From contig NC_079883.1 in the NCBI RefSeq assembly GCF_029227915.1, positions 26,538,001-26,602,000 on the forward strand: DNA of 64,000 nucleotides, written 5' to 3'. Below, one piece after another: positions 2-54,707 of this stretch (the first letter of the stretch is position 1; every line of letters starts with the position of its first letter). The DNA comes from Hydractinia symbiolongicarpus (lineage: Eukaryota; Cnidaria; Hydrozoa; Anthoathecata; Hydractiniidae). Both the position numbers and the translations under genes were made by a program. The notes beneath the pieces are model-generated. The model did no database searches. It worked only from the letters and a program-made list of their open reading frames with translations, and had not been told where the DNA came from.

Positions 2-530
2 CCCTCTTCAGCTGGCAAAGCCTTACTTAATCCCAAATGCAACGTTAAATTGCGTGTTAGTCAGCATTCCTTGGACAAACATGAATCCTTGACTGTTAAA
101 GATGAGTTCTATGATGTTCCCTTGAGGAATTTAGATGGTCTTACTGTTGCCCCGTCTTTCTTGGAATCATTTCCGTCTTCTTCCCTTAAATACAAAGATT
201 TTTTAATTCTCTTAGCTATCAGACGAAACGCGTCTTCCCCTGGTTTAAATGCTATTTCATATAAAAAATACAAAAAATGTCTTCAAATAGATACCCTCTT
301 GTTTAATGTTTTTTAATCGTGTTTAAAAAATTGTGTTGTACCTGTTTAATGGCGTTATGCTCGTGAAATTTATATTTCTAAATTAAAAACTCCTATGGAC
401 TCCAACATAACTGACTTTCGACCTATCGCACTTCTAAATGTCGAAGGGAAGCTCCTATTTAGCCTTGTATCAAGGCGATGGAAGCTCACATTATAGCCAA
501 CAACAAATTCATCAATACGTCCGTCCAAAA
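2..530 (+). pseudogene. USP-retrotransposon copy 1: RT N-terminal/fingers remnant
   Basis: The open frame from base 2 to 316 encodes residues that align with copy 2 downstream: a 'NPKCNVKL' block matches 'YPKCSIKL' in copy 2, and 'RRNASSPGLNAISYKKYKK' matches its 'RRNVSSPGLNQIPYTVYKN'. The SSPG-LN-I-Y-K pattern is the conserved entry into the RT of R2/NeSL-like elements with a restriction-like endonuclease. Bases 350-470 in another frame give an 'ITDFRPIALLNVEGKLLFSL' stretch, the next RT block. Stops and frame changes show it is dead. The element extends left of the window. RT sequence stops at about 530, where a 3'-UTR-type repeat unit is joined directly, so the catalytic RT core, knuckle and endonuclease are deleted. 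Confidence 0.8.
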
Positions 531-532
531 AG

Positions 533-600
533 AGTGACGACTCCACTTATTACCCCAGTAAAAAAAAAAGTATTAGCAGGGGGGTTTGATCACACATGGC
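533..600 (+). repeat. Stray 3'-UTR hairpin unit inside copy 1
   Basis: This stretch has the same block (agagtgacgactcc, then cttattaccccagt, an A run, then aggggggtttgatcacaca) as the tandem units at 1002-1260. Here it lies between an RT fragment and a USP fragment. It marks the breakpoint of an internal deletion or template switch. Confidence 0.8.
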
Positions 601-990
601 CATGTTTGCAACGCTCATCAAACTGCTTTAGTTGAAAAAGAGGTAGTGTTGTGCGGTTCCCATTTCATTTTACAGCTAAAACGTTTTGCCAGTGCCAACG
701 GCCTTGTGTCAAAAATTGCCTCTCGTATTACTGCTTACCCTGGTACCCTTTCCATACCTTTTACCGTAGATGGAGAAGTGAAATTTCGTAAAAAATTTCA
801 ATTAAGGGCTATTATCAACCATTGCAGAAACTTAAATAATGGTCACTACACAACCATAGCCTTCTACCAAATGGTACACAGGTGGATACATTGCAACGAT
901 AGAGCAGTAATTTTCTGTGATGACCGCCTTATTTACAGTCACGAGTCATATGTTTTTTTTTTTAGAAGAGCTGAGATAAGAATATTTTAA
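601..990 (+). pseudogene. USP-retrotransposon copy 1: C-terminal half of ubiquitin-specific protease
   Basis: The frame is open for about 130 codons and carries the C-terminal landmarks of peptidase C19 (ubiquitin-specific protease): a 'CN-Q-ALVEKE' zinc-ribbon edge, the 'GSHFILQLKRF' strand, and the His box 'NNGHYTTIAF' followed by 'W-HCNDRAV' and the closing 'SYVFFFRR'. The His in NGHYT and the Asn/Asp in CND are the expected second and third catalytic positions. The N-terminal half with the catalytic Cys is absent. The same sequence block recurs at 18150-18250, directly downstream of a Cys box, which shows that this is the end of an element-encoded USP. The tandem hairpin repeats follow at once. 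Enzyme family: high confidence. Function in the element: inferred. Confidence 0.85.
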
Positions 991-1262
991 CCGAAATGAC
1001 TCAGCAAGGGGGCTTGACTACACTCACTCTTGTCTTTGGAGAGTGACGACTCCACTTATTACCCCAGTCGAAAATAAAACAAAATCAAATAAAAATTAAG
1101 TTAGCAAGGGGGTTTGATCATACTAGGTCTTGTCTTTGGAGAGTGACGACTTCACTTATTACCCCAGTTAAAAAAAAGAAAAGAAAAAAATATTAGTAGG
1201 GGGGTTTGATCACACATGATCTTGTCTTTGGAGAGTAACGACTCCACTTATTACCTGAGTTA
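991..1262 (+). repeat. Tandem paired-hairpin units, 3' UTR of copy 1 (three units)
   Basis: Three units lie at about 1002-1068, 1102-1168 and 1193-1260, separated by A-rich linkers. Each runs 'agcaaggggg-ttga', then 'cttgtctttggagagtgacgactcca', then 'cttattaccccagt'. Each has a TGGAG/CTCCA stem around a conserved loop (agtgacga or agtaacga) and a weaker upstream GCAAG/CTTGT pairing. Further units at 5401-5523, 7000-7290 and 22601-22851 keep the loops while changing the stems. Confidence 0.8.
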
Positions 1263-1320
1263 AAAACAAAGAATAGCACAGTTGAACAGAAAATGGTCAA
1301 AGTTTACTTTAGGAAGATAG

Positions 1321-1428
1321 GGATGTCTAGTTTCTGCTGATGACCGTCCGCGGACCTCTTCGAGGTGACCCAGCTAGACATCCAGGGTACTTAGGTTCAG
1401 AAATATGGGTCGAAACCTACCTGCCCTG
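1321..1428 (+). ncRNA. Folded RNA element (three-way junction plus second hairpin) in retrotransposon UTR
   Basis: Bases 1321-1330 (ggatgtctag) pair perfectly with 1374-1383. Inside, CTG/CAG extends the stem, and two hairpins follow: a 3-bp stem around a tccg loop, and ACCTC/GAGGT. A second stem pairs 1383-1389 with 1422-1428 and encloses TAGGTT/AACCTA. A long-range GACC (1342-1345) with GGTC (1408-1411) pairing would make a pseudoknot. Copies at 15840-15955 and 22912-23015 keep these pairings, with several compensatory changes. It is probably a structural or catalytic RNA used by the element. Its class is not identified. Confidence 0.6.
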
Positions 1429-1461
1429 TGTTGTGTCCTTTTTATTTTTTTATATATTTAT

Positions 1462-1569
1462 TAATTAATTCCTTGTAAAAAGGGAGAATTGTGCTTTTAG
1501 AGGCATTTTCTCTAGAGGAGTACAACCTCTAGCTTATTTCCAAAGACCTAACAGGTTGAGTTCATCATT
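1462..1569 (+). repeat. 3' terminal hairpins and end of copy 1
   Basis: A conserved tail has a CCTT...AAGG mini-stem, an AGAGG...CCTCT stem-loop, then a 'taacaggttgagttcatcat' end. The same order is seen at 5880-5963, 7600-7737 and 16000-16113. All end near TCATCA or TTATCA, which suggests this is the 3' terminus of the element with a short TCA-like tail. Confidence 0.6.
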
Positions 1570-1768
1570 GCGGTGGCTTGCCACCTCTTTGTAAATTATT
1601 TTCTTATTGTCACTGTCCGAAAGGATAATGAATGACAATCTGGAAAGACAGATTGACACTGGGAAAGACTAGACCCTTACTTTTTATTTATTTGCTTATT
1701 TTTTTATGTGTGTGTATGTATGTGTGTTCTTTTTCTGTTATTTTTCTGTTACATGTAACATCACACTC

Positions 1769-1838
1769 CCTATTGACCAGTTATAAGTGAAGTATTCAGC
1801 AATAGACAGATAGTACTGTCACGCAAGGGGTCAATAGG
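1769..1838 (+). ncRNA. Stem-loop in the leader of copy 2
   Basis: A perfect 10-bp stem (cctattgacc with ggtcaatagg) encloses an inner GACAG/CTGTC hairpin. It lies about 90-110 bases upstream of the first coding-like sequence of copy 2. It has the same long-stem-with-inner-hairpins plan as the elements at 1321 and 7330, but no sequence similarity to them. Confidence 0.45.
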
Positions 1839-1859
1839 TAGAGTTGTTGGATGACATGA

Positions 1860-3705
1860 AAAACATGCCTGCTGAAACCGCGTAAAAGTTGGCAGCCCCA
1901 ACCCAATTGTTATCTGTCGCTCCCACCAAGCTTAGGCCGGCCCGTGGGATTTTTATGGTCTACAACAAAGTTAAATTTTTTAAACAATGATACCCCCAAC
2001 GATATAGACCCTGACCGTATTAGGACTGCCCCTACGGATATCGATTTCGTTATTACTAACTCCTCTGTCCTTCCTGCTACCTGTGATTCTTCGTTACTCC
2101 CTTCCACTAGGCATTGGATATTAAAACCGTGTAAAGTTGTTTTGCAAAATGTGCTAGCTTTTGATTCCACTGAAAAGTCTCGGCTGCTGAAAGCTAACCC
2201 GGATAACTCCCACAGTGTTCTTTCTCAGCAATCAACAGAGCCTGACCATCTTAGCACTATGAAATGGAAACAACCTATTGCTTGGCCGAAGTCAATTGAC
2301 ACAAAATTGTGGAATTCCCTTGATGATGCAGTTTTCCACAATCTTCTAGGCTCTTACCCATTGTCAAAAAAAGTGGAGCTGTTGGAATCAACAATATACT
2401 ACCATGCGTCTCACCTGTTTGGTGTAAGGTCACTTCCCCAGCACAACCTATCCGGTTTGAACAGCAGAGCTTTACGCGGCATCAGTTTGGTGAACGAGAA
2501 GAACAATCTACTCCGAACTCTTAAGAGCACATCTGAACCAGTTGAGAAAAGCAACATGCAAAACCTTTTAGATGATATAATGACCAAGTTAAGGTTACTT
2601 CACAGAGGTGAGCGGAATAGGAAAAAACGTTGGAAAATCTCGAATTCACGCCGGGCTTTCTCTAAGAATCCTTATCAGGCTGGGAAAAATATTTTATATC
2701 CTAAATGTTCAATAAAACTTGAAGTTGCCCAGGACGAAATGGATTCACACAAACATTCAACCTTGAACGATCCTTCACGCCATATACCTCTTTCAGATCT
2801 CCCTGGATTGCCTTCACCACCAAATGTAGTCTCAGCTTTCGATTCTTCCAAGCTAAAATTCAAGGATTTCCAAGCTGTCCTACATTCTCGTAGAAATGTT
2901 TCTTCTCCTGGGCTGAACCAAATTCCGTACACAGTATATAAGAATTGTCCTCATTGCATCGTTTCTGTTTAACATTTTTCAAGCTTGTCTAAAGAAGTCT
3001 TTTATTCCTGTGCAATGGAGAATTGCATCAGAAGTTTACATACCTAAAAACAACACACCTTGTCCATCCAACATAAAGGATTTTCGCCCCATAGCTCTGC
3101 TGAATGTTGAAGGAAAGCTCTTTTTTAGTTTGATTTCCAAGCGGTTAGAATCGCATATTATAAAGAAAAACATCTTCATTAATACTTCCATTCAAAAAGG
3201 TTGTATGGAAAAAGTTCCGGGTTGCTGGGAACACATGTCTCTTGTTTGGTCCACACTTAAGAATGCGAAGGCACAACATTCTTCACTTTTAGCCATATGG
3301 CTTGATATTGCTAAGGCGTACCCTTCAGTTCCGCACAAGCTGATTTTTATGGCTCTCAGACGCTATGGTGTACCAGAATCCTTGATAAAGCTCATACAGC
3401 TATACTACGACAGCCTGTGGAGTAAGTCTTTTTCGGCTTCTGCTCCATCCAGTTGGCATCAACACTGTAGGGGAATTTTTATCGGCTGTACACTTTCCAT
3501 TATACTATTTCTTGCAGCTATAAACGTTATTATTGAATATGTGTTTGTTACCCCCAGCCTTATTGATACTGAAGGTAATAAAAACAAAATCCCCGACCAA
3601 TCCCCAATAAAAGCTTTTATGGATGATATATTCTTAGTGTCCACGTCAATTCCAAGTACTCAAAATTTATTAAACAGGTGTACAACAGCGCATCATTGTT
3701 ATTGA
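1860..3705 (+). pseudogene. USP-retrotransposon copy 2: N-terminal region and reverse transcriptase
   Basis: The frame opens after a stop at 1857 and runs to 2972, then continues after a one-base shift near 2955 to 3705. The N-terminal part has the R2/NeSL-like blocks 'W-SLDDAVF-LL', 'KNPYQAGKNILYPKCSIKLE' and 'VSSPGLNQIPYTVYKN'. The RT part has 'DFRPIALLNVEGKLFFSLI', motif A 'LDIAKAYPSVPHKL' with the first catalytic Asp, 'GIFIGCTLSIILF' (motif B) and 'AFMDDIFLV' (motif C with both Asp). The catalytic residues are therefore intact despite the frame breaks. It is the longest copy in the window. No ATG precedes the conserved region; a GTG at 1944 is the first start-like codon. Confidence 0.85.
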
Positions 3706-4473
3706 TAAGGTAAAAGTCGTCCAAAGTTCACCGTTTACAGTTGGGAGCGAAAAAAGATTTTCTCTTTTCATTAGGAAATGGTTAAAACTACATCATTGAA
3801 TTTCCAACATTTCCTTATATTCCTCGACATCGCCTTGTCCTCTTCCCCTGAAAAGTCTTGCATGTGTTCTCAAATCTGCCAAAATCAGTGGACATATGTT
3901 ACTAAGAGATTCTGTCGACCCTTGTGTGTCTAAGTGCGTACCAGATTTAAAAGCTGGAAATTGGAAAGTTAGTGAGGCAGTTCTTTCGGCAGATAGTCAG
4001 CTCAATTTCAAAAGGATTTTAGGTTTGCATCAGACTGGTCGAGCTGGCTTAGGGCTCTTAGACCACAAAAATATTCCACCAAAAGGCACTTATGCTTACC
4101 GAAAGCTTGTTTCCAATATCATGGAAGAAAATGAAGAAGATATTTACCATGCCAGAGCTGTACAGTTGCATTTGCAAGGCTATTGGACAACGTGGTGCTC
4201 TTATGTGAAAAATGATTTATCTTGGGGAACAATTCTTTTACTGCCACAATGTCTAACTTCCTTTTGTATAGGGGCAACTACGACACCCTTCCCTCTCCAA
4301 TTAATCTTGCGAGATGGGGAATTGAGAAAGGCAAAAGTTGCATTCTGTGCAAGAAACCAACCTCAAATGTCTCTCACATATTGGGTGCCTCCTGTAGGAC
4401 CTCCCTTATGCAGGTTAGATACACATACCGCCATGACTTGCTTTTAATTGTTTTGGTTAAGGCATTAAAATGA
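3706..4473 (+). pseudogene. Copy 2: RT thumb to CCHC zinc knuckle
   Basis: Two overlapping frames (3896-4447 and 4222-4473) carry the region C-terminal to the RT core. The first has 'NFKRILGLHQTGRAGLGLLDHKNIP'. The second has 'NYDTLPSPINLARWGI' and then a CCHC knuckle (C-ILC-KKPTSNVS-H-ILGA-C), followed by 'RYTYRHDLLL'. The LPSP-NL-WG block followed by CxxC-H-C is typical of R2/NeSL-type elements just upstream of the endonuclease. It binds nucleic acid in that family. A frameshift near 4230-4330 breaks the chain. Confidence 0.8.
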
Positions 4474-5360
4474 TATCATATGAACCTCTTAAGGTTTCCA
4501 AGTGCATCAAAATTAATTTCATTCCGGCCGGTCAATCACCATCTAAGAAGAGGCATACAAAGTCTTCAGGCCTTCTTCACCTTGCTACCGATTGGAAAAT
4601 ACTGTCAGATTTAGATTCCGTTTTAGTTGTTCCACCATACATTGCTATAACACAACTACGCCCAGACGTGTTATGAATATTGAGTTCTTCCAGAACTGTA
4701 ACTATGTTAGAAGTGACCTGTCCATGTGAAGAGAACAAGGAATATTAGCACAAACGGAAGCTTAACAAATATTCCTTACTTTGTTATGCTATGAAAAACA
4801 ATGGATGGATCGTGCATTTCTTTGCCATTGAGGTGGGCGCAAGGGGTTTCTGTTCAGAATCTGTAAAAGACCTCTTTTCGTCGCGTTGGTTTCCCTCCTA
4901 ACTTTTATCTGCATGAGTGCTTCTTTTTACATCTGAATGTCTTGAAATTCTACCACTTGGGCTGAGCCTAAAAAGACCCCAATCATTCCTGAAGTAACCT
5001 TCTGTTACTACATTGTCCTTTTCGGCACCTGCAAAATACTGTTGGAAATTTGTTAATTTTTTGAACAGCTTCTGACACTGATATTTCATCAACTGACGGA
5101 TACTGTTAATCACGAGTTGGCTCATTCGCCACTTTCCTAGAAAGTAATTACTCAAGGGCTCGCACCAGATCCCAAGCATGAGTGAATTTCACCAATCCTC
5201 ATGTTTCCACATTTATAGGGGTTTGTTTTCAGTACAGCCGAAATTCATTAGCTTTTCGATCATCCCTGTAAAGGGGAGAACACAGAAGTTCTCCAGTGCC
5301 TTTTTATTCTTTGGAGAGAAACCTCCTTTTTTCATTAACATCTCTGTCTTAAAAGGCTAG
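4474..5360 (+). pseudogene. Copy 2: restriction-like endonuclease and start of linker
   Basis: From about 4515 the 'FIPAGQSP-KKRHTKS' block leads to a PD-(D/E)XK restriction-like endonuclease: 'ITQLRPDVL' carries the catalytic Asp, then comes an 'EVTCPCEEN' strand, 'K-LYSLL', and 'NNGWIVHFFAIEVGARGF'. In R2-type elements this domain nicks the target DNA to prime reverse transcription. An in-frame stop follows PDVL. The RLE frame runs on through 'GFPPNFYLHECFF'. The overlapping frame has an ATG (near 4914) that should start the USP but meets TGA within a few codons. Bases 5000-5390 do not match the USP of the other copies, so the protease is missing or replaced here. Confidence 0.75.
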
Positions 5361-5394
5361 TTATATCTGCATTGCGATGTAGTTACTTCTATTC

Positions 5395-5700
5395 TCTTCT
5401 TAGCCAGGGAGCTTGGCAATTGCCTTCTCTGGAAGTAACAACCCCAGTTATAACCTCAGTTCTGTAGGGAGGCCAAGTTTGCTCACTTGGTCTACAGGGT
5501 TAACGATCCTGCTATACCTGATGTTACGAAAAAGCTATATAAGGGGTTTTCTTTTTATCTTTTTTGTTTCCGTGACATTGCATCCACGATGATTACCCCC
5601 ACTGACTTCAGGCTGGTCCTGACCCACGGCTGCTCCAACGCGAACGGATGGTTTGAAGGGACAACTACTTGTGTAAGGCTGAATGTTAGGGTGGTTGTCT
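5395..5700 (+). repeat. Paired-hairpin units, 3' UTR of copy 2
   Basis: There are two recognisable units (5401-5460 and 5461-5523). The second has CCAAGT/ACTTGG closing a ttgctc loop, then CAGGGTT/GATCCTG closing a taac loop. Bases 5600-5700 match the structured region at 7290-7420 ('caggctggt', then 'tgtgtaaggctga-tgtt') but lack its 3' half. Confidence 0.65.
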
Positions 5701-5963
5701 GCTCTTATTTATAGTTTTAAATATTTTTATTTTTTTTCTATAGTAATTTCTTTGTTGTATTGTTGTCGTAATGTTCGCCTTCTGTTCTTATGTTGTCTAT
5801 TATTGTGTAGGGACTGTGAGTTGTACGTATTGTATTGTGTGGAGAGGGTTGTTTGGTTCAATTGCCTTGAATTTGCAGACTATCCTTTCAAAAAAGGAGA
5901 TCTTGCACTGCGTTTTGATCTTAGAGGGTGTAATTTCAACAATTTTAACTAGTTTCATCATCA
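5700..5963 (+). repeat. U-rich 3' tail and terminus of copy 2
   Basis: A T-rich stretch precedes a degenerate copy of the terminal block ('tcctttcaaaaaaggaga', then 'tagagggtgtaa', then 'ttaactagtttcatcatca'). It aligns with 1462-1569 and 7600-7737. The ORFs here are chance frames. Confidence 0.5.
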
Positions 5964-5999
5964 GAGCTCGCTATCTTGTTATCTCATAATCATTAACTA

Positions 6000-6940
6000 C
6001 ATTAACATTGAATCCCTGGAAGGCACTCTGACCACCGTGGAGTTTGGGACTCTTTGTCTCTTGCATTAATCGCCACTTGGATGATTTTATTTGCTTGTTT
6101 AACCAAACCTTGCGATTTGGCCGGGTACAGTATTCAATTATGTGGGTTCTTCCAAGACTTTGGTCTCAATTACCATCAGAGTCCTCTTTGTCATCTCCTC
6201 TAGTAAAGTCTATAGTCCTAAATATGTCACTACTGAATCGTTCTCGTTCACCAATTGATCCTTCCAATTTCTTACGGGCACTGCAAAACAATAACGCGTT
6301 TTATCACAATCACCAACAAGATGTGCCCGAGATCCTTCAAGTTGTTTTTGACGAAATTATTGGATCTTCCCCTTTGGTTGACAATCTACTGTCTGTAATT
6401 GTGACCACAACAACGTCATGCAACTCCTGTTGTTTCTCCATTTCCAGGGAATAAAAGGATTCAATTTTAATTTTACCAACGTGTAAGTCAATAGCAGACT
6501 CTTTTAACAAATTTTTACAACCTCAGGAACTTCTAGGTGACAACAAGTGGTTCTGCCCCCAGTGTTCATCGCATCAAGAGGCCACAATTGAAACTCAGAT
6601 TTCTAATTGCGGCGACTTCCTTGTTGTACAATTGTTAAGATACACATCAGTAAATGGGTCTTCTTTTAAAGACAACAAGTTAGTCAATTGCTTGCCTAAA
6701 AAACATCATGTCTTAAAGGTAGCATCTCACCCAACTGACGATGTGTCTTTCAACAACAAGTATAACTTGGTTGCTACCATTAACCACTCAGGTACATTAA
6801 AAGCATGTCATTACTGTGCCTTCATTAAGGACCAACAAAACACCTGCTTCAAATGCAACGATCGCTGTATTTCTCAAGTAGACACATTCCACTTGAATAA
6901 TTCTTCGTCATACATACTTTTCTTTTCCAGAAGTTAGCTT
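6000..6940 (+). pseudogene. USP-retrotransposon copy 3: ubiquitin-specific protease, most of the domain
   Basis: Frames 6044-6454 and 6632-6937, with an intervening piece around 6500-6630, cover most of a peptidase C19 domain. 'SPIDPSNFLRAL' is followed by the QQD box 'HQQDVPEILQVVFDEI', two CxxC zinc pairs ('TSCNSCC' and 'WFCPQC'), the 'LVVQLLRY' strand, a His box 'CHYCAF' and 'KCNDRCI', ending 'SSYILFFSR'. This copy proves the QQD and zinc-ribbon parts that copies 1 and 5 lack. The Cys box just upstream (around 6110-6150) is not recognisable. Frameshifts make it inactive. Confidence 0.85.
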
Positions 6941-7330
6941 ATTTGTATGTCACACAACAAATGGGGGAGGGAATCCATAACCCTAGCGGTTTTATTTACC
7001 CCAGCTGATTTATGTTGGTCAGTGCACCGTGAAACCGGAGTTTGCTCACTCCTCTCTTTGTATAGAGACACTGTAAGAAGCACAGCAAGGGGGCTTGATA
7101 TCATATCTTGTCTTTGGGCTTAACGATCCCACTTATTACCCCAGTCCAGTAGGGAGGCAGAGTTTGCTCACTTTGCTTTCAGGATTGACAATCCTGCTGC
7201 CCTTAGTCATTTTAGAAGAAGCTTTACAAGGCAGTTAGATTTTCTTAACTGGTCTTCGTGGTGTTACGCCCACGCATATACCCCAGTTATGACAGGCTGG
7301 TACTGTCATTAGGCAGGTACACAGCAACAA
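6941..7330 (+). repeat. Paired-hairpin units, 3' UTR of copy 3
   Basis: About four units lie at 7000-7075, 7083-7144, 7145-7205 and 7221-7290. Upstream hairpins are GGAGT/ACTCC and GCAGAGT/ACTTTGC around the invariant loop ttgctc. Downstream hairpins are TGGG/TCCCA, AGGATT/AATCCT and GTGG/CCAC around loops of the (t)naac/gac type. Stem bases differ between units while pairing is kept. Confidence 0.7.
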
Positions 7331-7334
7331 TTAT

Positions 7335-7427
7335 CTGTGTAAGGCTGAGTGTTGGAGCTCCATAACACATGTGGAAAGCTACAGCCAGGGTCACAAGTCC
7401 TGGCGCGCAGATAGTTGTTTGCTTCTT
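7335..7427 (+). ncRNA. Long-stem folded RNA in 3' UTR of copy 3
   Basis: A 13-bp stem (acaattatctgtg with cgcagatagttgt, two G-U pairs) encloses GGCTG/CAGCC, GTGTT/AACAC and CCAGG/CCTGG hairpins. It occupies the same place between hairpin units and terminal tail as the element at 1321-1428, but with unrelated sequence. This suggests two subfamilies with analogous RNA structures. Confidence 0.5.
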
Positions 7428-7599
7428 AAACACATTCTCTAAAGAATAATTTAAAATTTATCCGTTTTAGGATATTCACGTTATGATAAGTTTTATCTCA
7501 TTTGTACCTATTCAATTCATTTTGAATTGCTTTAATATTTATTGTTTAGTGTTGTGTTCTGTCGCTGTTGTATTTTTCTGCCTTTTACGGTCAATGTTT

Positions 7600-7737
7600 T
7601 TAGGAAATCCTTGCAAAAAGGGGGATTTTGCTTTTTTGAAAAATCTCTAGAGGGTTGCAACCTCTAACTATAGTAGAACCAGCTGTCATTAGACAAGAAA
7701 TATCATTACAGCTAGCTGTTTTGTCACCTCATCATCA
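7600..7737 (+). repeat. 3' terminal hairpins and end of copy 3
   Basis: It has CCTTgcaaaAAGG, TAGAGG-gttgcaa-CCTCTA and a terminal 'cacctcatcatca', parallel to the other copies. Confidence 0.55.
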
Positions 7738-7926
7738 ATTGATGAATTCGGCACCGTTATCAGAGTTCAAAATTTTCGGTATCCCAAAAGTTGCTAAAAA
7801 ACTTCTGAAAAAGTTTAAAGCAAATTAATTTGCTGATTTCCCTTTCATTGATTTTTTATGTTTTTTTATGTTTTTTTAAAATTGTTTGAACATTATTTTA
7901 TTAACATTAACTGTGTTATACATAAA

Positions 7927-10599
7927 TTAGGTTGTTATCTCACATATATAAGATACTAGATGTTTTTCTGCAATCATATCAGCTAACCGCTTGTAGAAGG
8001 CTTTGCATTCTTTTGCCATTGCACCATTCGCAGCGAACACCAGTGGTGTGAACGTACCATGTTCAATTTGCAACACCCGTTCGTTGTACTGTCGCTTCTT
8101 CTCTCTTTCGTTCATCTGAAAGAATCTCTTAATTTCTGAACGCCTGTACCTCTGAGCGTGTAGGTTAAAGACCCTTACGTCAAAGAATACTTTTTGGCTA
8201 GGCGTCCAGAAACCGAGAGCACTGATGTAAAGACGTGCTTCCTTCTAGATGTTTGCTGCAATCAGCATTGGCTCCTTCTTTACGTCATGACATACTTCTT
8301 TTAAGAGTGAGGCGGTGATGTCACGCAGTTCGTTGCTTTGCAGGGTGACCATGCCCCCTCTTTTACAAGACAAGGCATGGCAAAGGTCGAATTTTTCACC
8401 ACATACGCATTCTGTCGGGAGTCGCTCGAGGTTCCAGTTATACGTTATTCTGATCCCAAAACTGCTGTTGATTCAGATCGTAGCCCCAGTCTTTAAGGGG
8501 TAGTGTTGTCAGCCAGTTCGAAACGCCACTTTCAAGTTTGCTGTCGTTCAAACGTTTTTCGGCATCCACTATCTTCTATTTCTTCTCGTAGGCTGTCGAG
8601 CTTAGCTTGTTGCTTTTTTCTCCGTTCTGCCTTGATCACTGATCACCTTCTACCTGTGTGTCTAGGATCATGTTCTTTAGATGGAGCGTGACCTGGCAGG
8701 AATTTTCATATTCTTCATTTGCTGTTCGACTAACATCTTTCAAACCAAGGCCTCCAATACGTGGTGGCAGGGACAGGAGTGATCTCTCTCTATCATTAAC
8801 GATATGTCCACCAGTAATTGCTGGGATTAACTGATGTCTAAGGACCTCTTCGAACGGTTGTAAGTAGTTTTCAATCCCTGGGATTGTTCGGAAGAAGTAC
8901 GTCAGCTTATGTTGATATCCAGCAATATAACAGCCGTATGCTGCTTGCGGCTGTGTTGTCGCAATCCGAGAAAGCAGAGAAATTTCATTCACCCATTTTT
9001 CGACCAATTCATTAACGTATTTTCGCTTGTACTGTCCGCTTCCTACCACCGACCCGAGATGTCTTTCTCCTTCAGTGGTTATTTTCACCCCAGTTCCTTC
9101 AAAAATCTCTTTTGCCTCGTCGAACTTCTCTGGCCTCACGATAAGCCACGACTTTGTTGGTTTGGGATGATATCCATATTTTGGCCCACATTGGATGAGA
9201 TTTGACCACCAACTACGAAGTGCGACGAGGCTTCCAGATGCGCTTACATCATCCGCGAACGCCACCATCTTGTTGTTTTGATCCTCAGTTGTTGCAAGTA
9301 GGGGGGATATAGCCATCGCGTAAATAGCCATTCCGAGTGGATTACCTTGTGTTGTGCCCTCTCTTGACAATATTTCTCATTCATTGCGTGTATCGCCGCT
9401 TCACTACCTGCTTCTTGGCCGCACATTTGTGATTTTGAGGAAGCTTCCACCACATCTTTCTTTGTGACACTCATCACGATTTTTCCTGCTATACTCCTGA
9501 GTACTCCACCTACTCCAATAGGCCGTAGTCCTGGTTGTTTGTCCAGTGGGACTAGTCGGGATGCCATTATTGCTTCGAGGGAGTTGTCGTTGATGTTATC
9601 GACGCACATCCTTTTGATAACGTTTGCTAGCGCACTTCTAAGATCGTGTCCAGTGTCGCCATACATCTTCGAGAAAAGTATCTTCCTCCAACCGTCCGCA
9701 TCCATACCAGATGGACCGGAACCCCCTTTCGTCATCTGGGCTGCTTTGAGAACCATTTGATCGTCTATGGATTCAAAACTGATTTGTTCCACTGTGGGAA
9801 TTTCCCCTGGAAGTAGGGCTTCTTCATTTGCCTCTTTTCCATCGGGATGTTTGATTCGCAAAAACTCCATTGTTTCATTGTTTAAGGGTAATATCCCTCC
9901 TTTCATGTTGTTCGTAAGAAGCTTGATTGCACCATTCACGTTACCCTTTTGCATAAGCTCTTTAAATTGTCTTGAAAGAGCTGCCATATCTCTCTTCCCG
10001 TTGTTGGTAGGTAGTCTTGACTGAATCGCTTTCGCTTCTCTGTAAAGTTTTGCAAAGTCTCCCTTTCGCCATGTTTCCAGGCGTCGTTCGAGAGCTTCGA
10101 CGTGGTCTTTACTCTTTGATCTTTTGGATGGTTTCTGTAATAGCAAGGCCGGCATAATGTGTATCAGCCTCAGCGCACAGTTCTTGAGTGGAGAATTCTC
10201 TGTCCACGAATTCAGCAAGCGTGTCGTTTCACGAATGTATGCCTTTCCGGAAGCGCCGTTTGGTAGCATAAATAGATTGCGTTTCCAGAAAACGATTTTT
10301 TCGTAAATCTCTTTAGCACTTTTCTCCATCTCACTACCTTTCGTTTCGGACCACCAGAAAGTTTCCGCAATTTGTTCTTCTTGTCGCGGTGGCAAGTGCT
10401 GCTCGGGTGCAGGGGGCGGCTGGCCAACTTCCTGATTGATTTCATTTCTCGTGCAGTGTCTTAGTTGTTGGATAATTCCACGTTCAGATTTGCATTTCTT
10501 ACCACAATGTTCGCAATTAAATAGACGTTCACTCGTTTGTTCCATCTCTTCTCGGTTAATATTTGGTAAAACTCTTTCTGTATGAAGAATATTTTCCAA
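7927..10599 (-). pseudogene. Non-LTR retrotransposon with N-terminal zinc finger, RT and C-terminal nuclease-like domain
   Basis: This element reads right to left. It begins with a CxxC zinc-finger-like start (FNCEHCGKKC) and a long basic region. The RT follows: 'GGSGPSGMDADGWR', 'PLDKQPGLRPIGVGGVLR', 'GQEAGSEAAIHAM', then 'SREGTTQGNPLGMAIYAMA', 'VAFADDVSASG' (motif C), 'KPTKSWLIV', 'GERHLGSVVGS' and 'IATTQPQAAYGCYIAGYQHKLTYF'. Beyond the ORFs, frames at 8150-8560 give an HC-zinc motif (CVCG...CHALSC) and 'FFDVRVFNLHAQRY', then 'EHGTFTPLVFA' (7927-8115). At about 9360 the frame jumps from 'AMNEKYCQE' straight to 'SREGTTQG', deleting motif A, so the RT is dead. A second relic of this family lies at 62940-63897. 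Confidence 0.85.
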
Positions 10600-10619
10600 T
10601 AGGGCTATTTTACGCTGAA

Positions 10620-12350
10620 AAATATTTCTCCATAGGTAAAATTTTGTTTAATTTTACCGGAGCGACGGTTCAATTTAATTGAAAATGAGATCCTGAATTT
10701 GTTAAAATGCTCCACGACATGAGCAATGTTGTTGTAATCGCCATCTGGTTTAAATAACATAGCAATCAAGCACAAACAAAGTAAAAAGTATTAAATACTG
10801 TACACGCTGTTAGAATCCTGTAGTGGTCATCGGCTTCAATGGAGCTTTCTTTATCTGACATAAATTTCAGGCAGTAAGTTGTGCAAAGCTTTGTACAAAC
10901 ACCAACAGCGTCTCTACTAAACGTTATCATAAGTATGTGCTGTCTAAAATTGTTAGCAATTAAAAATCAGTGACACGTCCATATTTCTTGGGCTCCTCTT
11001 TTCAAACGAAGTTTGTTCGAAGAATCTAATACCTTTTCTAATGTTTTATGAACGCCTTGGTTACCAACTTCTTGACGGAGTACTTTATTGATAATGTCAA
11101 ACATCTGTCGGTCTTTTTTCTTTTAAAATACTATAAACATATCTAGTGTAAGGTTTGTATATGAGAAATGCAAATTTGAATAACTTCTCTAACACGCAGA
11201 CTTTTTAATTAAAACAATTCAATGCTTACTTCTCTTAACTGAATCATCACTAATTAGCGGGTTAAGCAACTTTAGTAGGACATGCGAAATTTTTCAATAG
11301 GCTTTTGCTGTTTTTGTAGGATCCTTGAACCAGTATTGAGCGTTTTTTACACAATCTGGCACTGAAACGTTTCACATTTATTTTCTACACGTATTCATTT
11401 TCGCGCTTAAAATATATCGTAACAAAAGGTAACAAATTAAAAAAAAAGTTTTTTTAAAGTCCTCCTGGAGTGCTCATCGTTCGTTTCTTCGAAACGCAAA
11501 GACTGACCACCAAACCAATGTTTATATAGCTTTTAAATTTTCCGTTCGAAATTATCAAAACCAAGTTAAAATAACCGAGACCAAAAACTTGGTTTCGGTT
11601 ATTTCTAAAAAAACCTGTGTAAATAAGATTCTAACGGTGATATGCGACTTGTATCGAAAACATCTTACTAAACCGACGACGTTTTCGATTTTCTAATAAA
11701 CTTGTACATTTCTAACGATTTTGGGGGACGTAAACATACCTTTCTCCTCGATTTTTTTTCTCTGTCTACATTTCTTGTCTTTGCGGAGGGCCCTAGAATA
11801 AAAAGAAAAACATAACAAGTTTATAATTACTGAAATATGCGGTTTAATGTTACCTTGCAACAACAGTGTTTGTTTAGTATAGAAAACCTTGTTCATTCCT
11901 GAAAAAGCTTTGGTTTGTACTAGACAAAAGTATGAAAACTGGTCTGCCTTTACACACACGCGTGAAGTTAACCATAACCAAAATAGATGAATAAACTGGT
12001 TTTGTGTATGGTCATCACAATATGTGACATTGTCAGGTCATGCTCTTTGTTACCAGTAAAGAAGATTTTAATTTGGGGGGTTTCGTTGTATTACAATCAT
12101 CAGTCAAGATTTAAATTAATTATTTTTTCCGAATTTTGTTGTGGATAAAGTTTCGTAAGAAGAAAGAACTTGTTTTGTTGTTGTTTTTGTGTTTAAGAAG
12201 AGAAAAAAGGAGTGCATTTTGTGGAATAAATTCAGAGAAAACTTATTTTGTGAAGTCTGTAAAATTGTGATTTAAATATAGGGACAATTTTACAGCTTAC
12301 ATTTAAACTTCTCCATTAAAAGTTAAAAGCATATGCCTAGTTGGTATAAA
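10620..12350. other. No gene recognised
   Basis: AT-rich sequence with only short chance frames. A near-perfect 14-bp hairpin (ATAACCGAGACCAA with TTGGTTTCGGTTAT) lies at about 11569-11600. Nothing else stands out. Confidence 0.5.
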
Positions 12351-12369
12351 GCATCCAGACTACAGCATT

Positions 12370-13388
12370 TTACTCCCTTATCAGTATTCTTAACTGTTGC
12401 AGGAACCTTTCTGTTAAGCATGTCCATTATCTGAAAAGGAAAATTGATCTTGTTCTTCTAAAGTGTGACACATAGGTAGAAAAGATGGATTATATGCAAA
12501 ATTTAAACAAATTTAAACTTGCCTGCTCCAGTGTAGGTCTTTCTGATGAATCACAAGTCCGAATTTTCTTTATTATGGGTGATATGAGTTTATAGTCTTA
12601 TATTGTCTTTAGATGATCTACTAAAGGTTTTTTATTGTTCTGTAGCGCTTCTAAAAGCAACGAATCATTATCAACTGGCAAAGCATGCATGCTTGGTCAG
12701 ACAAAATTTCATAGATTGTGATGGACCATGGGTATACATCTGTTTGGTATGTTGGTTTCATCAGTAACCTAGTGCATAGTTCAGGGGTAGTGTAAGTGCC
12801 GTCCCAACACATTGTTTTGTTGTTTTAAATGTTGCTGTGATAGTATTCTTTATGTCAGGTATGTCATCAAAATCTGGTACTTTCACATGGAAATTATTTA
12901 CTGAACCAAAAAGTAACAAATTCGAAGGTTTAAAGTCTTTATGGATAATTTCGAGATCATCCAAACCGGCTGTAGCTTGTTTGATGACATTTATCCTTTC
13001 ATTAAAAATAAAATGATCATTCTCGTTGATAATTGACATCATCTGTCCAACATTGTGCACTCATCTCATCACCAATCAACAACTGACAACTGACAATATT
13101 TACAAATGAATGCAGATAGGTTACAACAAAATCCCTGAAAAGAAGCCACATTTGTATGGCTTAACTACTTGTCCGCTACTTTGGAAAGCCTCTTCTTTGC
13201 GTGCTTCTGTTTCAGAACTTTTACAGCAAATAATTGACTGTCTTTTTTGTGACAATATAAATTGCTGATGCACCTTCACTGATCTTGTCAGAAAACGTCA
13301 ATGGCAGGTTTGTTTTATAAAGTTTAAGGATCTCTTGAATTGCATCACACTCCGTTGGATTAAATAAAATTGTACCTTCATTGTAGTT
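12370..13388 (-). pseudogene. Decayed protein kinase gene
   Basis: Reading leftwards from a 3' splice site (tattttag) at 13389, the fragments follow kinase order: a glycine-loop-like 'ISEGASAIYIV', the Lys strand 'LFAVKVLK' after a one-base shift in an A run, 'LSHTNVASFQGFC', the catalytic loop 'IIHKDFKPSNLLLF' (HRD reads HKD), 'VKVPDFDD' (DFG reads DFD), 'TYQTDVYPWSITIYEIL' (subdomain IX), and 'SSERPTLEQ' (subdomain XI Arg). After LEQ a gcaagt donor and a ccttttcag acceptor bound an intron of about 90 bases. The catalytic Asp and Lys are present, but several stops and shifts argue against function. The kinase family is not assignable. Confidence 0.7.
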
Positions 13389-13877
13389 CTAAAATATACA
13401 AATATTTTTAATGTCAAGACAATTTATTTCCCACAAAATGCCTATTCTTTCTTTATGAACCAACAAGTAAAAACACAAATTTAGAACCACAAAAAGCGAA
13501 ATAATATTATCATAATTGAACAACTCAATTGAAAAAGTTGCTCTTCTGTTGCACTGTGAATCTTAGTTGTCATAAGTAGACTTACAGCCTTCTGAGTCCT
13601 ATCTAGTTACATAATGAACCTATAATATCAATGCAGTAGTGTGTGATAATGATTTAAATAAAAAACTTTTTTTCTTTTTTTTCTTTTTTTTTTTAATTTT
13701 ATCTTGAAGGTTTTTTGTAATTTGAGGTTGATATTTACAAGTTTTGCAATTACCTGTTTTGTCTTAGACTCTTAGAGTTTTTGTTTGTATTTAATTGCAA
13801 TAACTTCTAAAAAATATGATAACATTTAGCCAGAAAAATATAAGCTGTTATGCAAAGCACTTATATAAATGACATAC

Positions 13878-14059
13878 TTTTTCATGCCATGGTAAATTAT
13901 TTTCTCCATAAAAGTATAAAATTTCTTTCCCAGGCCTAATATCTCTCTGTTCGAAAAAGCACAGTGGGTGTGATTATGATATGCAAACACTTTCTTCGTT
14001 ACAGCATTGGTGAAATATTTAAAATCATTAACCAACCAAACCAAATGGTAGCAGCAAGC
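13878..14059 (-). CDS. Possible coding exon upstream of the kinase remnant
   Basis: An open frame of about 60 codons is bounded by a plausible acceptor (atattatatttag) and a strong donor (gtatgt). The translation ('FTNAVTKKVFAYHNHTHCAFSN') is not recognised. Its phase does not join simply to the kinase exon at 13388, so it may belong to another gene or be chance. Confidence 0.3.
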
Positions 14060-14179
14060 CTAAATATAATATATATAATTTATAAAACTAAAGCTTTTTA
14101 AAGTCAATCCTCCACATTAAAAACACAGTGATAAGAAAAATATATCAAAAACTTTTGGCAGATTATAAAAATGAGCATC

Positions 14180-14420
14180 TCTTTAATAATAGCCGTATTC
14201 CGTCTGTCTGAGTGTCCGTGAAAGACGCGTCCTGTAACGGAAACACGAAATTTTTAAAATGCGCACTAATACCAAATGCGATATATTTTTAACAAATTTG
14301 TTTTTCCCGCTCGACGTAGAATACATTCACGACGCCTAACTCTTTAAAAAACAATCCAAGTTTTTCGAGGCCGGACCTACAAAGACCATTTTGATTTTGA
14401 AAATGGTCATGTGTGATCAG
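14180..14420 (+). repeat. Interspersed repeat with 'aatagccgtattccgtctgtctg'-type end
   Basis: The start 'taatagccgtattccgtctg' recurs in related form at 41141 (+) and, reverse-complemented, at about 53320-53340. It is probably a non-autonomous element family. Right ends are not determined. Confidence 0.4.
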
Positions 14421-15830
14421 TGCATGAGGATTGTGGTAGACCTGTTTGACTTTTTTATCTTCTAAAAGCTTTATATTTTTGTAATATTTGTTTTTTGTTT
14501 GTTTTCAATGTTAGAATGAATATATTGTCACGTTTTTTAGCCACGTGCAGATCCTAAACGCACCAGTTTAGGATGTTTGGATAGAAATGAAGATTTTAAA
14601 GGTTAGCTAGCTAGAGTCTTACTTCTTACTATTCTATATGGTATAAGAGCTTTTTATCCTAGGCAACATTTACTTTTATGTTATGTGACTATTTAGCTAG
14701 CTAGCTAGCTAGTTTCTTAGCTAAACCTCTGGGTAAAAAGTGAGAGTATAAAAATGCAGTTTGGCTACACCAATATTCTTAAGCAATAATTCTTATGATA
14801 AATGCAGTCAGTTTGCTAGGTAGCTACACCTTTTCTTATTTTCCTGAAAACCTTTTCTGCAAATAAAATGGCGGAGCGATTGACTTGGACAGGTAACGAC
14901 AGGCTGTTCCCTGTCTTTTTATGTAAACCGAAGTTGCAATGAAGTTATTTTGTAAAAGAGAATTACGCTTATACACATTTTCAGCTCTGTTTAACTATAC
15001 TAAGCACTTAGCCCAGTGTTAACAACAAACAGTTTTTTTTGGAAAACGCTCTTACGCCAATGCGCATGTGCGACATAGTTTACATGTACTTCTGAGGGGT
15101 CAGCCCACTGGGGCAATCAATTTTTAAACTTTCTTGGGAATCACACCTGTACAGATGAGCAACACTATTTACCTGAACTAACCGCTCAGCCCTGTGTTAG
15201 CAATGGACTTTTTATCGTGTTATTATTTAAACAGAGTCTGCCAGAATTTTTTTTTTAAAAGGATATTAAACCTATACGCCTGTGAAATAGCGTTTAACTG
15301 TACTAAGCACTCGGCTCGGTGTCACAATTAATTTTTTACCTTTACAAAAACTTATTCTGCAGAATAAAATAATATTACCCATTGTTTTTGTTATGACGGA
15401 GTAACAACGGTTTGTGAACTCTGTTTTAATTCAGCTTTTGTTGCGGGAAAGTTATTTTTTGAAAAATATGTTACAGTCGCAACACAATGGTGTGTGCTCT
15501 TCACTTGATTTACAACATACTGCATACCCGTAATAAAGTCATCCACCTCACCGGGTTGCAAAGTTTGCGGTTCTTATTAAGGGCTCTTCAAAGCGTTCAA
15601 CAACAGTTACTTGTGACTTAACCCGGCGTTTCGACGCTGGCTTTCTTGCAATGCAGTATGAAAAAGGACAGGCGAACTTGTGTATTTTTTCATGGGTTAT
15701 GGGTATTGATGATCACTTATCAAGATTATGTGTAAAGGACATAATTTGTGTTAAACTAAAAGTTCAGTACCTACGGCATATCTGTCTTACCCGAGTCACA
15801 CAACAGAGTAGGACAGATGAAAAGTTATAG
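14420..15830. other. No gene recognised; short TAGC-type tandem repeats
   Basis: Contains a (tagc)n run near 14694-14712 and smaller ones around 14604. No coding similarity seen. Confidence 0.45.
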
Positions 15831-15834
15831 ATGA

Positions 15835-16113
15835 AAGAAATGTCTAGTTCCTGCTGAAGACTGTTCGCAGACCTTTTATGAGGTGACTCAGCTAGATATT
15901 TTGGGTACCTTGGTTCAGGAAAATGAGTCGAAATCTTTGTACCCTTTACAGAAGTCCTGTCCTACTCTCTCTGTCTGTTTGTTTGTTTAATTTTTGTGCC
16001 AATTACCTCCTTGGAAAAAGGAAGAATCGTGTTCCTTTATATGAACATATTCTTTAGAGGAGCAAAACCTCTAGAATTTAATTTTTAAGACTTAACTGGT
16101 CGAGTTTATCATT
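15835..16113 (+). repeat. USP-retrotransposon copy 4: isolated 3' end
   Basis: It matches 1318-1569: the three-way-junction RNA (atgtctag with ctagatat, a CTG-ttcg-CAG hairpin, ACCT/AGGT), the gggtac/gtaccc hairpin, the terminal mini-stem, AGAGG/CCTCT and a 'ttatcattg' end. No coding part precedes it, as expected for a 5'-truncated insertion. It supplies informative compensatory changes relative to copies 1 and 5. Confidence 0.65.
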
Positions 16114-16134
16114 GTGCGTGCACTTTGTAATTTT

Positions 16135-17010
16135 CATTCTTAACGCAGCATTCCACCAGTTAGAACTAGACGAGTCTTGCAGATATATAACAGCGTTCCG
16201 CACACAACAAGATAATGCAGTACAAACGATTAATATTTGGTGCAAATAGTGCTTCAGAGGAACTACAACATACGATCCAATCAATACTTTCAGACATAAA
16301 CGGTGCAGACAATATTGCCGATGACATACCAGTTTACGCAACAACGACAGAAGAACATGACAGAATCTTGACACAAGTGTTTAAGAGACTATCGGATAAG
16401 GGAATAACATTAAACTTACACAAATGCTTGTTTGACTAACATAACCTTGAGTATTTCGGCGGCGTGTTTTCAGCAGAGGCGATGAGACCAAGTCCGACAA
16501 AAATTAACAGTCTTTTAAACGTGAACCGAACTACAGACGTCAAATCATTAAGAAGCTTTTTGGGGATGATTAATTATTTAAAAAGATTCATTCAGAACTA
16601 CAGTACCATTACTTATCCTCTCCGACGTTTAATGCAAAAAAATGTAAAATTTGAGTGGAATACAGAATGCCAAGAAGCGTTTGTAACTTTGCAACAACAT
16701 TATCCGAAAAGTCGTGTCTGTCATACTTTGACGAAAACAAAGAAACACTCGTGTTCTGCAATTGTAAGAAAAATGTCATAGATGATATCTTACTCTTCAA
16801 GATCACTTACGCAACCGAAAATGACTCCCAGATAGAACGGAAATGTTTAGCAGCGACTTATGCATTTGAAAAAAACATTTTGTACCTTTACAGAAAGCAC
16901 TTCGCACTTTTTAGTGACAAGAAAGCATTAGTAAATATACTGTCCCAAATCAATCCCAAATCAACACCGCCCCCGCGAATTGAACGAATGATGTTGCGTC
17001 TACAGAGATA
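16135..17010 (+). pseudogene. Ty3/gypsy pol fragment (RT and RNase H)
   Basis: It starts just after the motif A Asp ('NAAFHQLELDESCRYITAF'). Then follow 'KRLIFGANSASEELQ', the catalytic 'IADDIPVYA', 'LNLHKCLF', 'KSLRSFLGMINYLKRFI', RNase H pieces, and 'RIERMMLRLQRYNFI'. These are standard gypsy pol landmarks. Both ends are abrupt: copy 4's terminus lies on the left and the restriction-like endonuclease of copy 5 on the right. Several frame changes are present. Confidence 0.85.
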
Positions 17011-17489
17011 CAACTTCATTCCGGCCGGTCAATCACCATTTAAGAAGAGACATACAAAGTGTCCAGGCCTTTTTCACCTTCCTTTTGATTGGAAAATACT
17101 GTCAGATTTAGATTCCGTTTTAGTTGTTCCACCATACATTGCAATAACACAACTACGCACAGACGTGTTATTAATATCCAGTTCTTCCAAAAATGTAATT
17201 ATGGTAGAACTGACTTGTCCATGTGAAGAGAACACGGAATATTGGCACAAACGAAAGTTTAACATATATTCCTTACTTTCTTATGCTATGAAAAACAATG
17301 GATGGATCGTGCATTTCTTTGCCATTGAGGTGGGTGCAAGGGGTTTCTGTTCAGAATCAGTAAGGACCTGTTTTCGTTGCCTTGGTTTCCCTACAAACCT
17401 TTACGTTCCCTATTAAAATCCCTAACTTTTACCTCCATGGGTGCTTCTTTTTACATCTGGATGTCTCGAAGTTATACCACTTGGGTTGA
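16655..17489 (+). CDS. Chimeric ORF: gypsy RNase H fused in frame to restriction-like endonuclease (copy 5)
   Basis: One open frame (16655-17416, 253 codons) runs from gypsy RNase H into the endonuclease of the USP retrotransposon with the junction inside 'RYNFIPAGQSP'. The endonuclease part is the best preserved in the window: 'VVPPYIAITQLRTDVLLIS', 'NVIMVELTCPCEENTEYW', 'RKFNIYSLL', 'NNGWIVHFFAIEVGARGF' and 'CFRCLGFP'. A short duplication near 17393-17420 then shifts the frame. Without it the frame would end at TGA 17487-17489, 53 bases into the USP ORF. It is unlikely to be a functional fusion. Confidence 0.75.
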
Positions 17490-18260
17490 GCCTGAAAAGG
17501 TTCCAATCATTCCTGAAGTTTCTTCTGTTACAAATATGGAATGTAAGATATCAAAAACCCTTGAGAAATCTTCCGCAAGTCACACAAAATCATATAAAAT
17601 CAAAAACCCCGAAAAACTTGCTACAAGGTCTTCCAAAACAACAGTCGCATTGTCATCTAACCCTGATTTTAGGAATAGCGGTCTAAAAAACTTGGGAAAC
17701 ACATGTTATGCAAACTCCATCTTACAATGTTTTTATAACCTTCCAAAAGTTCAAGAAGCCATTTCTGTCAGCAAAACAACCTCAAAGTTAGGCGAAGCAT
17801 TTGTAGGTGTTCTTCAAAGTTTGGCTGTTTCTAGAAATCCAGTTGATCCCTCCCATTTTTTGCGTGCTGTGAAACATCATATCTCAGCTGCGAAGGGAAG
17901 TGCATTTAATATCTTTTCTCATTCCCCGAGGTTCTTGAAAATCTCTTACCTGGTCTGTCATGAGACTTTCCATTTCTTGGAAGTCTTTTTAATATTGGCA
18001 TCAAGACATCAACCACTTGCAATTCATGTCATATTACCAGCTACTCAGAAGTTATAGCACCATGCATCCAACTTTCTCTGCAATCTTCGTTACAATCTTC
18101 CTTAGATAATTTCTTTAAAAGCGAGGAGTTGTCAGACACTAATGCCTACTTCTGTCATTTTGCAACGCTCATCAAACGGTTCTAGTTGAAAAAGAGGTAT
18201 TGTCGTGCGGCTCCCATCTCATTTTACAGCTAAAACGTTTAACCAGTGCAAAAAATTTAC
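17437..18260 (+). pseudogene. USP-retrotransposon copy 5: start of the ubiquitin-specific protease ORF
   Basis: ATG 17437 opens a frame (to 18057) that overlaps the end of the endonuclease frame in a different register. After a variable linker of about 85 residues comes the peptidase C19 Cys box 'GLKNLGNTCYANSILQCF' at about 17680-17735, with the nucleophile in NTCYAN. It is followed by 'LPKVQEAI' and 'NPVDPSHFLRAV'. Frame breaks follow, but bases 18060-18250 still match the zinc-ribbon and 'ILQLKR' part of copy 1. The match ends at about 18250; the C-terminal His box is missing. The 3' UTR of the same element appears at 22582, beyond the DIRS-like element. Confidence 0.85.
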
Positions 18261-22580: not shown

Positions 22581-22581
22581 G

Positions 22582-23015
22582 AATTTTAACCAGAATGAGT
22601 CAGCAAGGAGGTTTGACTACACTCAGTCTTGTCTTTGGAGAGTGACGACTCCACTTATTACCCCAGGCAAAAATAAAAACAAAATCAAATAAAAATTAAG
22701 TTAGCAAGGGGGTTTTATCATACTAGGTCTTGTCTTTGGAGAGTGACAACTCCACTTATTACTCCAGTTAAAAAATATATATATTAGCAGGGGGGTTTGA
22801 TCACACATGATCTTGTCTTTGGAGAGTAACGACTCCACTTATTACCTGAGTTAAAAACAAAGAAAAGCACAGTTGAACAGAAAGTGGTCAAAGTTTACTT
22901 TGGGAAGATGGGGATGTCTAGTTTCTGCTGATGACCATCCGCGGACCTCTTCGATGTGACCCAGCTAGACATCCAGGGTACATAGATGCAGAAAGATAGG
23001 TCGAAACCTACCTGC
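22582..23015 (+). repeat. USP-retrotransposon copy 5: 3' UTR beyond the DIRS-like element
   Basis: It is near-identical in order to 978-1425: the end of USP coding, three paired-hairpin units (22601-22666, 22702-22768, 22785-22851), and the folded RNA (ggatgtctag at 22912, partner near 22974-22983). The match stops at about 23015, so the terminal hairpins are missing. Confidence 0.8.
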
Positions 23016-54692: not shown

Positions 54693-54707
54693 GTACGCAT
54701 AAATAAC

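Follow-up and report, generated by a model that had tools for sequence, protein, structure and literature searches.

Hydractinia symbiolongicarpus harbors non-long-terminal-repeat (non-LTR) retrotransposons of the restriction-like endonuclease (RLE) type in which a reverse transcriptase (RT), a CCHC knuckle, the RLE, and a C-terminal ubiquitin-specific protease (USP; Pfam UCH) are, as judged from sequence, almost certainly encoded in one open reading frame (ORF). The window analyzed here is the whole 64,000-nucleotide stretch C9:26538001-26602000; it contains only broken remains of several such families, and the unbroken RT-RLE-USP architecture is found only at loci outside it. A preliminary description of the window had proposed that an RLE element encodes a USP, and full-length copies with unbroken frames of 1422-1426 residues at several other loci now bear this out. 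Genome searches covered the 480.9 Mb assembly (76 contigs).

Architecture and Insertion of the Intact Elements

Family A includes six copies (L009-L014) with a 1426-residue frame. They differ pairwise at only 7-12 of 4278 nt, indicating that the family moved recently. In L011, RVT_1 spans residues 339-609, zf-RVT (below cut-off) 828-892, and UCH 1137-1423, the last covering the whole profile with an E-value (E) of 3.7e-32, and the RLE motif KPDLVLYS...ELTCPCEEN lies near 980-1002. Family B (L016, 1422 residues; L017, 1379 residues) has the same domain order, and the Cys box of L017, NKGNICYAN, retains its cysteine. Two further USP types, C and D, are represented by L003 and L006, respectively.

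UCH is found at at least 150 genomic places (149 of 1015 candidates scored), many in long stop-free frames and a few, such as L001, resembling host genes. The family A tail occurs at at least 40 places (40 of 287 candidates scored). With the complete family A ORF as query, 33 of 3455 candidates were scored, giving 40 match rows that were grouped by hand into 33 distinct elements; the search favors long matches, and the USP rate it yields is biased. One element (C1:29776440) covers neither RLE nor USP. The USP is seen in 30 of the 32 elements that span the RLE: the match reaches residue 1375 or beyond in 27 of these 30, at C14:1635944 and C14:2493393 the USP is an adjacent UCH match, and the last is one copy of an array on C13, read in L029. 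The remaining two of the 32 are the other copies of this array, and in one of them the linker and the first part of the Cys box can be read up to the end of the locus. The array, at C13:23678939-23698027, had looked like a USP-less family because its matches end at residue 1079; the copy in L029 has a USP in other frames and is no counter-example. Long interspersed nuclear elements make up 4% of the H. symbiolongicarpus genome, and the word "ubiquitin" is absent from the main text of the report that gives this figure (PMC11067881).

The RT is recognized by Pfam RVT_1 in family A (E 8.1e-16) and family B (E 4.7e-17), and its closest solved relatives are R2 proteins (9nl2, E 1.6e-20; R2Tg 9dou, E 7.9e-20; 8gh6, E 6.9e-8). 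Residues C468, C471, H480, and C485, which we take to be the CCHC knuckle, and P577, D578, E593, and K609, presumably a PD-(D/E)xK-like endonuclease C-terminal of the RT, are invariant in 39 chosen rows; zf-RVT scores below the Pfam cut-off in both families. The RT, the knuckle with its endonuclease, and the fixed 3′ end described below identify these elements as RLE non-LTR retrotransposons. The preliminary label "R2/NeSL-like" is retained as to the RLE type and given up as to R2 or NeSL, neither of which is shown: the nearest relatives of the RT are unclassified RLE elements, followed by elements of fish, probably of the Hero/Zebulon type. No Ulp1 match is obtained up to E 0.5 in family A or B, the protease present being UCH and C-terminal. 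There is no N-terminal zinc finger or Myb Pfam match up to E 0.5 in either family. The basal relatives P0055, P0148, and P0150 carry N-terminal C2H2 zinc fingers (Pfam), and P0055, P0087, P0088, and P0091 have ORFs of 1951-2151 residues with long unexplained N-terminal parts. A match to the ubiquitin-like Apg12 in the RT thumb (L017, E 0.0043; family A, E 0.041; below cut-off) lies within the RT fold and was set aside as chance.

Among 80 element USPs, the catalytic Cys is kept in all 80 and the His and Asp in 77 each, with the boxes in C19 order, and the four-Cys zinc finger and USP fold of Peptidase C19 are present. This suggests an intact-looking domain of the deubiquitinase type with predicted activity. 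The linker that precedes it ranges from 37 to 429 residues, carries GG in 11 of 78 and RGG or LGG in one of 78 cases, and has predicted local distance difference test (pLDDT) values of 32-36 in a structure model; it is weakly constrained. No ubiquitin-like domain scores above the Pfam cut-off in the element ORFs.

Family A has a constant 3′ end near TTGTAAACCTTTTTCAT(C), lying within two bases of the same position in 12 junctions; five copies are 5′-truncated, and no LTR-type structure is seen. Wherever the first base of the core is retained (eight copies, L009-L015 and L019), at least 111 nt of the element's own 3′ end directly precede it. Four single copies have upstream pieces of 111, 204, about 290, and 480 nt; those of four tandem copies are longer, the tandem unit being about 5.37 kb. 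On the simplest reading, transcription would begin within the tail of the copy upstream, and the transcripts would then be copied with 5′ truncation. Arrangements of this kind are also known from Zebulon (in fish), HeT-A, and Penelope-like elements. The 12 3′ flanks of family A hold no common sequence (mean identity 0.287), only an A at +1 in nine of them, and no target-site duplication is evident, the longest word common to both flanks averaging 4.9 nt (10 sites) versus 4.6 nt for swapped sites. With respect to a structured RNA in the 3′ tail, four of five stretches do not fold better than shuffled sequence (z 0.01 to 0.74) and one has a z of −1.78; Rfam gives no match at gathering scores in 84,000 bases.

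Relatives and Evolutionary History

The RLE-USP part as a query retrieves 73 proteins, of which 43 carry both UCH and RVT_1 in a precomputed Pfam list. Among the best 120 of 164 proteins retrieved with the RT part, most of the nearest have UCH, and farther ones, including those of fish, do not. Hydractinia (P0050) is the only named animal among the USP-bearing rows, and two rows labeled as bacterial metagenome-assembled genomes (P0026 and P0108) are probably contamination. P0114 is at most 43% identical to places in the Hydractinia genome (28 of 2764 candidates scored), which supports a clade reaching beyond H. symbiolongicarpus. By the 43 homologues with both domains, the expectation of copies in other loci or species is upheld for other sources, as distinct from named species. 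One scan of viral contigs gave 21 pattern matches with an RT-RLE-USP alignment and no relative.

The RT-RLE tree was drawn from a pool of 147 proteins, leaving out P0066-P0073 and 21 of the 29 rows of P0116-P0147 (P0118, P0139, and P0143 set apart); two Hydractinia ORFs were added, 120 sequences were aligned, and removal of 16 whose RT or RLE was short gave 104 rows. The USP tree comprises 76 database rows, four Hydractinia families, and eight cellular USPs, P0067 having been dropped as a near copy of P0066. A further tree of 55 rows was hand-picked (35 USP, 10 USP-less, and 10 outgroup rows) with fragments and gene models left out; P0148, P0150, P0151, and P0153 are present only there. All trees were quick or LG+G4 trees without a mixture model, and some branches are long.

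In the 104-row tree, all 69 USP rows fall in one clade of 86 (Shimodaira–Hasegawa-like approximate likelihood ratio test 99), which excludes eight fish-type rows (five of them named fish) and the P0056-P0065 group; six of the eight fish-type rows also stand outside the USP clade in the 55-row tree. The latter requires four changes of USP presence, the same number when only starred branches are counted, and the simplest reading would be one gain and three losses, the candidate losses being P0098, P0150, and an eight-row group (P0096, P0097, P0103, P0105, P0106, P0110, P0111, and P0153). Pfam finds no other protease in five USP-less proteins (P0150, P0153, P0096, P0098, and P0110). In the USP tree, a single branch (96/92) splits the 80 element USPs from the eight cellular ones, and the RT-RLE and USP distances agree with r 0.85 over the 69 common rows, a value reached in none of 500 shuffles. 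A single old acquisition of the USP, followed mostly by joint descent with the RT, is likely, and the sequences indicate that the USP has been held under constraint.

Several observations weigh against this history. The 104-row tree, in which fragments and gene models are included, contains 10 changes of USP presence; many of the USP-less rows there are, in our judgement, gene models or truncated (P0035, P0054, P0078, P0083, P0084, P0086, and P0092). Complete USP-less elements also exist (the P0096-P0111 group, P0098, and P0150), so the USP is not needed everywhere. Only eight cellular USPs serve as the outgroup, and long branches meet in the USP tree. The nearest neighbor is the same in both trees for only 38 of 69 rows, and P0113, P0042, and P0047 are placed differently in the two; on account of these disagreements, some exchange of USPs between elements is possible. 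As for constraint, synonymous sites are saturated between families, and the changes within families are too few to show it (ratios 0 to 3.3).

Fish RLE elements such as the Tetraodon polyprotein Q7T1J8 (among P0116-P0147) likewise combine RT, CCHC, and RLE in one ORF, the named fish rows being 35-36% identical over the RT part, and no named fish row has UCH among the matches listed. Q7T1J8 and similar elements are presumably of the Hero clade or Zebulon. Partial tandem arrays are the form in which Zebulon moves, and the same seems true of family A. An N-terminal Ulp1 domain is found in nematode NeSL families and in one Utopia (PMC4640811); these are RLE-type elements as well, some with a cysteine protease, yet theirs is Ulp1-like and N-terminal, whereas the one described here is a USP and C-terminal. 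R2, whose RT is related, inserts at one 28S site (PMC4117753), whereas the flanks of family A differ from site to site.

Proteases of the ubiquitin system are known from other mobile elements. Ginger1 transposases can carry a C-terminal OTU or Ulp1 domain, and one Trichomonas protein joins transposase_11 to Peptidase C19 (PMC2836005), while Helentrons carry OTU proteases (PMC4067079); all of these are DNA transposons or rolling-circle elements rather than RLE retrotransposons. SymbioLINE-Dnmt and SymbioDIRS-Dnmt3 are old fusions of a host enzyme in retrotransposons, with congruent RT and enzyme trees (PMC5890265), the enzyme being a DNA methyltransferase, in contrast to the deubiquitinase of the present elements. 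Cellular USPs (USP2, USP8, USP15, USP21, and USP36) have the same fold and catalytic residues as the element USPs, but the latter form their own group and are 18-28% identical to solved chains among the matches listed. Among the literature matches listed, which are mostly open papers, none describes a USP in an RLE element or in any other non-LTR element. Ubiquitin-type proteases in mobile elements, including one C19 fusion, are thus not new; a USP in an RLE element apparently is, pending Repbase, where an earlier description may exist.

Element Copies in the 64-kb Window

The window was searched by tblastn with the intact ORFs of families A and B, P0050, and the C-type USP (L003). The following features, all on the + strand, are remains of these elements.

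2..531 (+), broken RT fragment of one RT-RLE-USP family (tblastn; family A ORF residues 210-386)
568..990 (+), 3′ portion of a USP with His box NGHYT at 838-852 and HCND at 889-900 (Pfam UCH, tblastn)
1003..1432 (+), 3′ untranslated tail after this USP, with 2.8 copies of a ~92-bp repeat at 1003-1273 (TRF)
2022..4999 (+), frameshifted RT-RLE copy of the P0050 family (tblastn with P0050, LOC130628696)
6131..6934 (+), lone family B USP domain with an internal TAA and an altered His box (92% to L016 residues 1135-1408)
16997..17401 (+), RLE domain of a P0050-family copy (tblastn with P0050, 85%; RLE motif at 17153-17233)
17416..18260 (+), linker and USP behind this RLE, split over frames (UCH; tblastn to P0050 and to the B and C USPs)
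22570..23023 (+), second copy of the 3′ tail repeat (direct-repeat families D2 and D4, 70-94% to 1003..1432)

The Cys box, the QQD box with its zinc CxxC pairs, and the His box that the preliminary description had assigned to three separate copies were all found again, and Pfam, proposed there as a check, recognizes UCH well beyond chance at 577-987 (E 1.3e-10, profile positions 150-254), 6455-6934 (E 8.3e-15), and 17329-18054 (E 3.5e-10), as well as RVT_1 at 2917-3702 (E 1.6e-16). A weaker UCH match at 6032-6451 (E 1.4e-4, 22 bits) falls below the cut-off of 23.9. The copies had been treated as one element; they belong to different families, 6131-6934 to B, with 601-981 and 17677-18259 nearer to the C-type USP (L003; 52-56%, and 55% for 601-981) than to family B. 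The RT fragment at 2..531 is 58-70% identical to the family A ORF and 62-80% to that of family B. P0050, an annotated H. symbiolongicarpus gene model, itself runs RT, RLE, USP.

The family B piece has QQDVPEI at 6314-6334, CNSC at 6419-6430, and CPQC at 6554-6565; it contains one internal TAA (genome row C9:26544215) and CHYC in place of the GHYW of family B. In the 17 kb copy, ELTCPCEEN of the RLE motif lies at 17207-17233, LRTD stands where RPD is expected, and the Cys box GLKNLGNTCYAN follows downstream at 17680-17715. The order claimed for this copy, with the Cys box behind the endonuclease, holds, but RLE and USP are in different reading frames. A Ty3-like RT and RNase H remnant (16191-16996; RT_RNaseH, E 2.3e-9 in 16655-17413) abuts its RLE, and the RLE-USP piece may have been inserted into that remnant. 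At 22570-23023, neither a USP nor an RT match adjoins the tail repeat with the tblastn queries used.

The copy at 2022-4999 matches P0050 in pieces of 65-91% identity over 2022-4895 and at 46% over 4784-4999, with 3199-3883 outside the P0050 matches and covered by family A. By tblastn, it has no USP behind it, which speaks against a standing RT-RLE-USP association and which we read as decay. The window copies being broken, and this one lacking the USP, the claim would be doubtful from the window alone. These same facts favor a USP brought next to a decaying retrotransposon by chance or by capture of a host gene, the outcome that the preliminary description had named as fatal to its claim and that the copy at 2022-4999, taken alone, would have resembled. 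Capture at this one locus is ruled out by the fused frames at many loci, and with 43 of 73 homologues carrying both domains and the RT and USP distances in agreement, the whole explanation can be practically dismissed.

The window has further features. Two overlapping ORFs (333 and 121 residues) at 18652-19901 (−) include a tyrosine-recombinase-like part and look, to us, DIRS-like. At 8636-10647 (−) lies a different RT-like ORF pair (467 and 246 residues) with an N-terminal C2H2-like motif; 9244-10644 has no Pfam match up to E 0.5. Nested inverted repeats at 37422-40259, with arms 80-88% complementary, flank a 31-bp tandem array, and a 21-bp unit is repeated 17.9 times (88% matches) at 54700-55073.

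Possible Roles of the Protease

Elements of the RLE type cut one DNA strand and use the nick as the place to copy their RNA. On the basis of the fixed 3′ end and the 5′ truncations, the present elements would copy themselves by target-primed reverse transcription. The USP is proposed to remove ubiquitin, or another modifier ending in Gly-Gly, from the element's own protein or ribonucleoprotein (RNP) or from proteins at the integration site. RT-RLE-USP non-LTR retrotransposons whose USP spares their own complex or acts at the site probably provide the best overall explanation. Of the two actions, the former is favored, since a loose linker under weak constraint holds the USP in cis to RT-RLE and since its apparent repeated loss suggests an accessory directed against the host rather than a core part of replication. 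Deubiquitination of its own complex would spare the element from ubiquitin-dependent removal by the host, a step to which we give roughly even chances.

Alternatively, the USP may act on chromatin. Removal of ubiquitin from histones or from repair factors at the nick would allow target-primed reverse transcription or synthesis of the second strand to be completed, or would let the new copy escape silencing. Its fusion directly to the endonuclease would bring the USP to the nick, and a role of ubiquitin or SUMO in repair during or after transposition has been proposed for Ginger elements (PMC2836005). The 12 3′ flanks, however, reveal no special target, and the analyses made do not tell this action apart from protection in cis; it is possible, if rather unlikely. 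The terminal position of the protease domain in one long ORF, together with the unsettled role of cysteine proteases in other elements, would also fit a protease that processes its own polyprotein in retroviral fashion. This is improbable, as the linker has no conserved Gly-Gly site and relatives do without the USP (P0098, P0105, and P0150 end soon after the RLE); the variable length, weak constraint, and low pLDDT of the linker and the lack of a ubiquitin-like domain above the Pfam cut-off argue in the same direction.

The RT of Prp8 is followed by an RLE-like domain, RNase H, and then Jab1/MPN, which binds ubiquitin. The parallel to the RT, linker, endonuclease, and protease of the present elements is an analogy only. 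It raises the prospect that the USP binds ubiquitin or other proteins without catalysis, as a module comparable to the Jab1/MPN that accompanies the RT, linker, and endonuclease-like domains of Prp8 (PMC5603734, PMC5678591). The retention of the catalytic Cys, His, and Asp in nearly all of the element USPs is unlike an inactive domain. Moreover, Jab1/MPN has an unrelated, metalloprotease-type fold, and a pure binding role is quite improbable. A broader proposal, which we regard as doubtful, is that an old and widespread RLE clade with an active deubiquitinase practices counter-defense against ubiquitin-dependent removal of the integration complex and that, with Prp8, a ubiquitin-handling domain would have been joined to an RT-RLE chassis more than once, for RNP remodeling.

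Returning to the RT-RLE-USP elements that may act on their own complex or at the integration site, their domain is old and, within a single ORF, has preserved its catalytic residues. It occurs in near-identical copies in a laboratory animal, Hydractinia, and three lineages appear to have lost it. The role of ubiquitin and SUMO proteases in several kinds of mobile element is unsettled, and the question is open to direct test here, because the same chassis occurs with and without the protease and the domain can be assayed in isolation. An RLE-type element also joins those selfish elements with a possible action on the ubiquitin of the host; the intact-looking domain suggests that the elements described here interfere with the protein-tagging system of their host.

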